Source: a virus. Taken from it: 50,345 bases of DNA. The notes beneath the pieces are model-generated. The model saw nothing but the letters and a program-made list of their open reading frames with translations. It was not told the DNA's origin and ran no database searches. The translations under genes and the position numbers were made by a program. The DNA is taken from IMG/VR virus record IMGVR_UViG_3300019768_000006, positions 1 to 50,345 of that record. One strand, given 5' to 3'. Shown piece after piece: positions 4,042 to 5,933 of this stretch (positions within the stretch are counted from its first letter, which is position 1; each line of letters opens with the position of its first letter).

Positions 4042-4116
4042 AGTGTACCTCCATATGTAATCGAGGACTTAATTTCTAGCCAAGTCCTCAGAGAGCCGAA
4101 AGGAGGTATATTTATG

Positions 4117-4780: not shown

Positions 4781-4852
4781 AGGCAAGTGGAGGATTCGAA
4801 CCCCCGTAAGCATGTAGTCGACATACACGATTAACTCACCGTTATTCTTGCC
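4781..4852 (-). tRNA. tRNA-like, Val-type anticodon GAC with C33
   Basis: Cloverleaf with acceptor GGCAAGA/ACTTGCC (last pair A-A), weak D arm ACG/CGT lacking the GG of the D loop, anticodon stem GTATG/CATGC and T arm GGGGG-TTCGAAT-CCTCC. The loop is TCGACTA, so positions 34-36 are GAC (Val), but position 33 is C where almost all tRNAs have U. A shifted stem (GTGTA/TACAT) would give UCG with G33, no better. CCA is not encoded. It may be a degenerate tRNA or a purposely altered one. Confidence 0.5.
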
Positions 4853-4908
4853 ATATCAATTGTGGTTAATTTCTAGCCAACCACCGCTGAAAGCCGATGT
4901 TATTTGAC

Positions 4909-5032
4909 TGGTGAGATGTATAGGATTCGAACCTATATTGTCAGGTGTGCCGCCAATTACACCAAGCGGGCCGTAGCCCACTACTGGACTTGAACCAATT
5001 CCTCCCAACTGTTCCCATTAACTTAACATCTC
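4909..5032 (-). ncRNA. Double-headed tRNA-like RNA (two tRNA bodies on one anticodon stem)
   Basis: A 124-nt unit ending in A-CCA. Outer head: acceptor GAGATGT/ACATCTC (7 perfect pairs), D arm GTT-AATGGG-AAC, T arm ATAGG-TTCGAAT-CCTAT. Where the anticodon loop should be, a stem GTTGGG/CCTGAC (5004-5009 with 4940-4945) opens into a second head: T arm ATTGG-TTCAAGT-CCAGT, acceptor AGTGGGC/GCCCGCT closed by the tetraloop TACG, and D arm GTGT-AATTGGCGGC-ACAC. The inner head is a circularly permuted tRNA, reminiscent of a Leu tRNA body. Neither head has an anticodon, so it cannot decode. The pairings are seen in the sequence; that it is a stable RNA is inferred. Confidence 0.75.
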
Positions 5033-5099
5033 ACGCCGCCCTAGTTTTGTTTACATGCTTTATAGTCTCAAGGAAACTAGGAAAAGTCCAGACTATCAT

Positions 5100-5738: not shown

Positions 5739-5816
5739 ATTACATCCTTTCTCTAGTTTACTATGTATAAGGATGTAAGCCCTTATTACTCTACCCAGGG
5801 CTCAGGGGTTATGTAA

Positions 5817-5933
5817 TGGAAAGCGTGTTGGGAGTCGAACCCAACTGCATAGTGATCAAATCCATACAACACTGACCGCAAGTACTTGTGCCTACTGCCT
5901 AGAATTTTTCAACATTTTCCTTTGTGTACGCTC
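5817..5933 (-). ncRNA. Atypical tRNA-like element with expanded centre
   Basis: Its 3' part is clearly tRNA-like: T arm TTGGG-TTCGACT-CCCAA, acceptor strand CACGCTT, discriminator U and CCA. The only matching 5' acceptor strand is GAGCGTA, 117 nt upstream (six pairs, last pair mismatched), followed by a possible D arm CAA-AGGAAAATG-TTG. The centre can pair as AAATTC/GGATTT enclosing 38 nt, or as GCAGTAG/CTATGC. No clean 7-nt anticodon loop appears. A strong 10-bp hairpin (GAGCTGGCCC with GGGGCTGGCTC) lies just upstream at about 5939-5970. It may be an inserted or rearranged tRNA like its neighbour at 4909. Confidence 0.4.

Follow-up and report, generated by a model that had tools for sequence, protein, structure and literature searches.

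An RNA that, as read from its sequence, is built of two tRNA tops (each with acceptor, D arm and T arm) joined through one stem at the position of the anticodon arm is encoded in an IMG/VR virus record of 50,345 bases, the whole of which is referred to here as the window. The RNA occupies the minus strand from 5032 to 4909, is 124 nt long including an encoded CCA and sits in a cluster with three tRNAs recognised by ARAGORN, on the same strand as these neighbours. If the reading is true, a two-headed molecule is one form that the tRNA fold can take and that phages have repeatedly kept, and such double-headed RNAs escape tRNA finders.

Anatomy and pairing of the window RNA

The features of the RNA are listed below in 5' to 3' order, each with the nucleotides that follow it.

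5033-5096, minus: conserved leader immediately upstream of the RNA, possibly forming an H-type pseudoknot (BLASTN against the related contig L008)
5026-5032, minus: outer acceptor, 5' strand GAGATGT, 7/7 Watson-Crick with 4913-4919; then TAA
5011-5023, minus: outer D arm GTT-AATGGGA-AAC, only 3 bp, GG in the loop; then A
5004-5009, minus: shared stem, strand 1 GTTGGG, replacing both anticodon arms, 6/6 with 4940-4945; then AGGA
4983-4999, minus: T arm of the inner head, ATTGG-TTCAAGT-CCAGT
4976-4982, minus: inner acceptor, 3' strand AGTGGGC, 7/7 with 4965-4971 including one G-U
4972-4975, minus: TACG loop capping the inner acceptor, UNCG-type tetraloop with a C-G closing pair
4965-4971, minus: inner acceptor, 5' strand GCCCGCT; then TG
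4947-4962, minus: inner D arm GTGT-AATTGGCG-GCAC; then A
4940-4945, minus: shared stem, strand 2 CCTGAC, 6/6 including two G-U; then AAT
4940-5009, minus: closed permuted tRNA-mimic head, YrlA-like (match to covariance model R1)
4920-4936, minus: T arm of the outer head, ATAGG-TTCGAAT-CCTAT
4909-4919, minus: outer acceptor, 3' strand ACATCTC, discriminator A and encoded CCA

Both heads have acceptor, D and T arms, with a TTC-R-A T loop and GG in the D loop. In the inner head the 3' half lies upstream of the 5' half, so that its order is circularly permuted, and between the heads there is a 6-bp stem only. Reading of the sequence and ARAGORN gave no anticodon or anticodon arm in either head. 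A sequence-only reading had placed the element at 4909-5032 as a permuted tRNA inserted in the anticodon position of another, without an anticodon, and this anatomy proved right. Its account of acceptors that pair only in a nested way around a shared stem was also borne out, with 7/7 pairs in the outer acceptor, 7/7 in the inner acceptor and 6/6 in the shared stem; cis pairing, as in an ordinary tandem pair of tRNAs, gives just 2/7 and 2/7 for the acceptors. If the T and D arms are fixed as anchors, two 7/7 acceptors and a shared stem of 6 bp or more would occur together by chance with a probability of about 1.6e-7. The proposed fold (-37.2 kcal/mol) differs from the minimum free-energy fold (-37.5 kcal/mol) solely in the register of the shared stem. 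The z-score of the latter (-1.57, with 17 of 200 shuffles equally good) is unremarkable and folding energy is therefore not counted as evidence. Neither ARAGORN nor the Rfam tRNA model called a tRNA on the element, the latter giving one fragment of 18.7 bits, under the 29-bit cutoff.

In algae and archaea, permuted tRNA genes likewise place the 3' half before the 5' half, but mature into anticodon-bearing tRNAs, whereas the window RNA has no anticodon sequence (PMC3978253). That the RNA is a precursor spliced into ordinary tRNAs in the same manner has the permuted order of the inner head in its favour; with an anticodon in neither head, no sequence left to supply one and no intron-like insert, this origin has next to no probability and we regard it as refuted. 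The tRNA-like domain of tmRNA resembles the window heads in being an upper tRNA half without anticodon arm (PMC3985003), but the window RNA has stems in both D arms, two heads and no tag reading frame; ARAGORN called no tmRNA and no frame for a tag peptide was present. Phage T4 rnaC and rnaD are also small stable RNAs of a phage tRNA cluster, and rnaC has a T-arm-like hairpin at its end; inspection of their sequences showed that they are not double-headed, and they were rejected as relatives.

The inner head and YrlA Y RNAs

Bacterial genomes were searched with a pattern of a T arm, then a UNCG-capped 7-bp hairpin and then TNG; the loops of the YrlA-like modules recovered are mostly of the TTCG/TCCG type, the pattern having asked for TNCG. 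The flanks of the modules resemble what we take to be the Ro-binding sites of Y RNAs, and among the matches listed a Ro60/TROVE gene is present in 10 of 12 module-carrying genomes compared with 1 of 14 controls. The matches are therefore most likely YrlA. A covariance model, R1, made from 38 of the genomic modules, aligns with the window inner head over its full length with every pair standard (45.9 bits, E=4.3e-12). R1 was rejected as a detector specific to closed heads, since ordinary tandem tRNAs also score 30-50 bits, and the match is accordingly support for, rather than proof of, descent. YrlA-like closed permuted modules were also observed in phage DNA, in viral contigs L087, L102, L166, L193, L208, L231 and L236.

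YrlA, like the window inner head, contains an acceptor/T/D module that is closed and circularly permuted and has no anticodon; its loop is in many cases of the UNCG type (PMC8394870, PMC7790460). A review (PMC8394870) describes D, T and acceptor arms in the tRNA-like domain of YrlA, names PNPase as a binding partner of this domain and gives DusA and TruB as enzymes that modify it. The long basal stem through which YrlA binds Ro60/Rsr has its place taken, in the window RNA, by an open second tRNA body with CCA. The claim that no RNA is known to be built in this way thus stands in part: the closed permuted head alone is already known as the YrlA tRNA-mimic module, while the joining of this head with an open tRNA body appears to be undescribed, no description of the double-headed architecture having been found in the open PMC papers searched. 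If true, the window RNA would offer a counterpart on the phage side to the YrlA tRNA mimic, which is itself poorly understood. It might act as a YrlA-like adaptor, in which the inner head binds a host protein (PNPase in the case of YrlA) and the outer head, in place of the Ro60-binding stem, tethers a second tRNA-binding partner. The R1 match and the protein contacts of the YrlA domain speak for such an adaptor; the element has no Ro60-binding basal stem, and no TROVE/Ro60 gene was found in the window record or in nine other phage records, which may be fragments. We consider the adaptor rather unlikely.

Double-headed RNAs in other phages and the closest relative

A descriptor scan found the nested architecture outside the window as well; together with the shared stem and the loss of cis pairing it is present in the window and in 11 other sequences, from two further phage sets. 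Perfect nested acceptors combined with poor cis pairing were confined to the window and the other double-headed elements described here among 337 loci (2.98 Mb of viral DNA, mostly tRNA-enriched), the descriptor having been run on fetched loci only, most of which were picked by tRNA-like patterns or as relatives. The first set is an uncultured phage group, P (L077, L117/L246 and L247/L028/L248/L250), with 68-76% protein identity between members in a neighbouring gene. Group P carries two double-headed RNAs, DH1 and DH2, and a third, DH3, in L247 only (at L460:9304). All 42 pairs of DH2 (100%) are kept in four distinct sequences, and eight of them, in the outer acceptor, shared stem, inner acceptor and T arm, are changed on both sides; the inner acceptor, for example, is ATGGGTC/GACCCAT in one sequence and ATCGCCC/GGGTGAT in another. 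Sliding the partners by 1-3 columns lowers pairing from 100% to 25-38%. The covariation score was reached by none of 500 shuffles, a count that is not to be read as a probability because the sequences are four and related.

The second set comprises a jumbo phage (L212/L467; 323,678 bases, ~324 kb) and its cultured relative, Burkholderia phage FLC9. The jumbo phage has three double-headed paralogs with shared stems CCCCG/CGGGG, CCCTC/GAGGG and CTCCC/GGGAG. Two copies lie on the minus strand of FLC9 (LC667451.1) at about 129379-129228 and 129055-128919, in an unannotated gap between gp120 and gp119; with FLC9 as a cultured carrier, the question of function is directly testable. The outer acceptors of L212 and FLC9 have a 1-2 nt bulge in the 3' strand. 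FLC9_a aligns with DH1 of group P despite different inner acceptors (CTGCGCG-TTCG-CGCGCAG versus TTGGCCG-GCACTAT-CGGCCAA), and the elements of P, L212 and FLC9 may therefore have one common origin. No sequence similarity was found between the window copy and these elements, and the window copy may represent a second origin.

Judged by this covariation, the double-headed architecture of the other phages is a real, selected RNA. The window RNA had also been viewed as a possible fossil of tRNA-half recombination. A relic without function, left by recombination between tRNA genes, is disfavoured, and so is an assembly artefact, since the DH2 pairs all hold, eight of them with two-sided compensating changes. 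Although the window element has no close homolog, as a relic might, its three perfect nested helices and the loss of cis pairing also argue against a relic, which is largely refuted for the class and very improbable for the window. Compensatory changes of the kind that had been sought in the stems are numerous in the independent double-headed RNAs that other phages carry. Searches for the window element gave no match in IMG/VR (21-base pattern) and, in a phage collection, short tRNA-fragment matches only and no close homolog.

The closest relative found is L008, with 56% amino-acid identity in a peptidase. The leader at 5033-5096 matches L008:5673-5767 (BLASTN E=0.005) and has putative pairings ATAGTCT/AGACTAT (7-nt strands) and CCTAGTTT/AAACTAGG; by eye, in these two sequences, both the stem and the pseudoknot pairings are kept with different bases. 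At the syntenic place in L008 the same leader is followed by a single anticodon-armless tRNA (GGTGAGA-TA-ACTC..GAGT-TCATATGAGTC-GGTGG-TTCAATT-CCACC-TCTCTCC), and not by the two ordinary tandem tRNAs that would have spoken for a deletion or assembly artefact. A second armless tRNA lies nearby, with linker TCACGTGAGAC. The L008 linkers carry 8-nt palindromes (TCATATGA and TCACGTGA) whose differences preserve self-pairing; because the linkers are self-complementary, a homodimer would share the layout of the single chain in the window. The syntenic armless tRNA with its palindromic linker suggests, but does not show, that the double-headed RNA arose by tandem fusion. Elsewhere in L008 (6029-6138) a circularly permuted head is open at the anticodon stem, with GAGGA and TCCTC at its two ends, and has a long spacer where the acceptor loop would be.

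Single-headed anticodon-armless tRNAs are common in phages. They are ~57 nt long, with acceptor, D and T arms intact and a linker of 6-12 nt; the descriptor found 58 with 51 different linkers. Carriers include viral contigs L018, L019, L031, L047, L054, L085 and L125 and the Lactobacillus brevis phages LBR48, Lb and 3-SAC12. Several score 43-53 bits with the Rfam tRNA model, and annotators omit them or label them tRNA-OTHER. A link of the Lactobacillus copies to GOLLD was dropped, there being no Rfam match. Armless phage tRNAs resemble the window RNA in their intact arms, and one occupies the syntenic site in L008, but they have one head, 6-12 nt instead of the anticodon arm and linkers that are mostly not self-complementary. 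As a general property of armless tRNAs, homodimerisation was rejected: palindromes of at least 4 nt occur in 17 of 51 linkers, with ~15 expected by shuffling, and the dimer gains of the L008 copies (-8.6 and -13.1; RNAcofold) are not special against the median of all armless tRNAs (-8.6). What remains of the homodimer idea is the L008 palindromes, as a lead only.

Possible functions and neighbouring elements

Lacking an anticodon, the RNA would be unable to decode or to be cut at the anticodon loop, and could thus serve as a bivalent bait that resists digestion and titrates a host factor which recognises tRNAs, likeliest an anti-phage nuclease or toxin that targets tRNA. We put this forward tentatively, as a reading with a substantial chance that nevertheless falls short of probable. 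The RNA would be cut from the transcript of the tRNA cluster by the tRNA processing route, with RNase P acting at the outer 5' end and the encoded CCA providing the 3' end; both heads would form tRNA-like elbows, to which host enzymes that recognise acceptor or elbow would bind or which they would modify. Phage tRNAs counteract retron-Eco7 and PrrC (PMC11555353), and an extra tRNA-Tyr counteracts Septu, for which decoy and supplement have both been discussed (PMC13096335). The tRNA-like domain of YrlA is not cut by an SOS-linked anticodon nuclease and has been proposed as its competitive inhibitor (PMC7790460). This hypothesis is a published precedent for a decoy, which is plausible. Against the bait, in one tested case (retron-Eco7) phage tRNA-Tyr required its anticodon: with the anticodon changed the effect was lost, so that the tRNA acted via translation and not as a decoy (PMC11555353). 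The bait by itself also leaves unexplained why the inner acceptor is capped and the outer one uncapped. A PADLOC scan of seven window proteins gave no hit, and with a TROVE search it identified no defence or Ro60 gene linked to the element in the record. If true, the bait would add an RNA component to the contest of phages with tRNA-targeting defences. The wider proposition, that double-headed tRNAs are widespread in phages as a so far unrecognised RNA class, arose as tandem fusions of armless tRNAs with self-complementary linkers and act as bivalent anti-defence decoys, is possible but carries considerable doubt.

The open outer acceptor, the encoded CCA and the canonical T arm would also suit an aminoacylated, non-decoding tRNA, acting as an amino-acid donor or as a sink for a synthetase or EF-Tu. 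No enzyme dependent on aminoacyl-tRNA was present among the window proteins scanned (a partial set), and the bulged outer acceptors of L212 and FLC9 would be unusual in a synthetase substrate; we judge this role distinctly unlikely.

Next to their double-headed RNAs several phages have tRNA heads in which a long structured extension lengthens the anticodon arm or the anticodon loop is enlarged.

L077:620-726: tRNA head with extended anticodon arm or loop
L117:6060-6272: tRNA head with extended anticodon arm or loop
L247:2770-2972: tRNA head with extended anticodon arm or loop
L485:3380-3510: tRNA head with extended anticodon arm or loop
L467 16088-15954, minus: tRNA head with extended anticodon arm or loop

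In group P, L212 and FLC9 the outer-head style also bears long structured anticodon-arm inserts. This, together with the conserved leader 5' of the window element, fits a scaffold for processing or protection, in which tRNA heads give clean ends (through RNase P and the CCA enzyme) and protect or separate RNAs, the second head being a stabilising cap. Punctuation, however, needs one head alone, and the window heads are separated by nothing but six base pairs, which leaves the scaffold doubtful.

Further elements were noticed in the window and in L008. Hairpins with different stems share a common loop, GGCTAGAAATT, preceded by CGGCT(C/T)T; changes in their stems are compensated and two of the three are just upstream of a start codon.

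Window 4063-4089, minus: GGCTAGAAATT-loop hairpin
Window 4862-4884, minus: GGCTAGAAATT-loop hairpin
L008:6438-6463: GGCTAGAAATT-loop hairpin

A conserved RNA at window 5815-5902 (minus) and L008:5345-5455 (63% identity over 112 nt) ends in a T arm and a tRNA-like 3' end and has a conserved loop, TTGATCAC, with the palindrome TGATCA; ARAGORN called the L008 copy as tRNA-Pro. The short element GAGCCCTGGGTAGAGT..AAGGGCT, at window 5765-5818 (minus) and L008:4914-4971, is 88% identical (E=2e-13) and located outside recognised genes. A tRNA-like gene missed by ARAGORN, possibly for Arg (anticodon TCG), occupies window 4783-4853 (minus), with acceptor GGCAAGA..ACTTGCC and T arm GGGGG-TTCGAAT-CCTCC.
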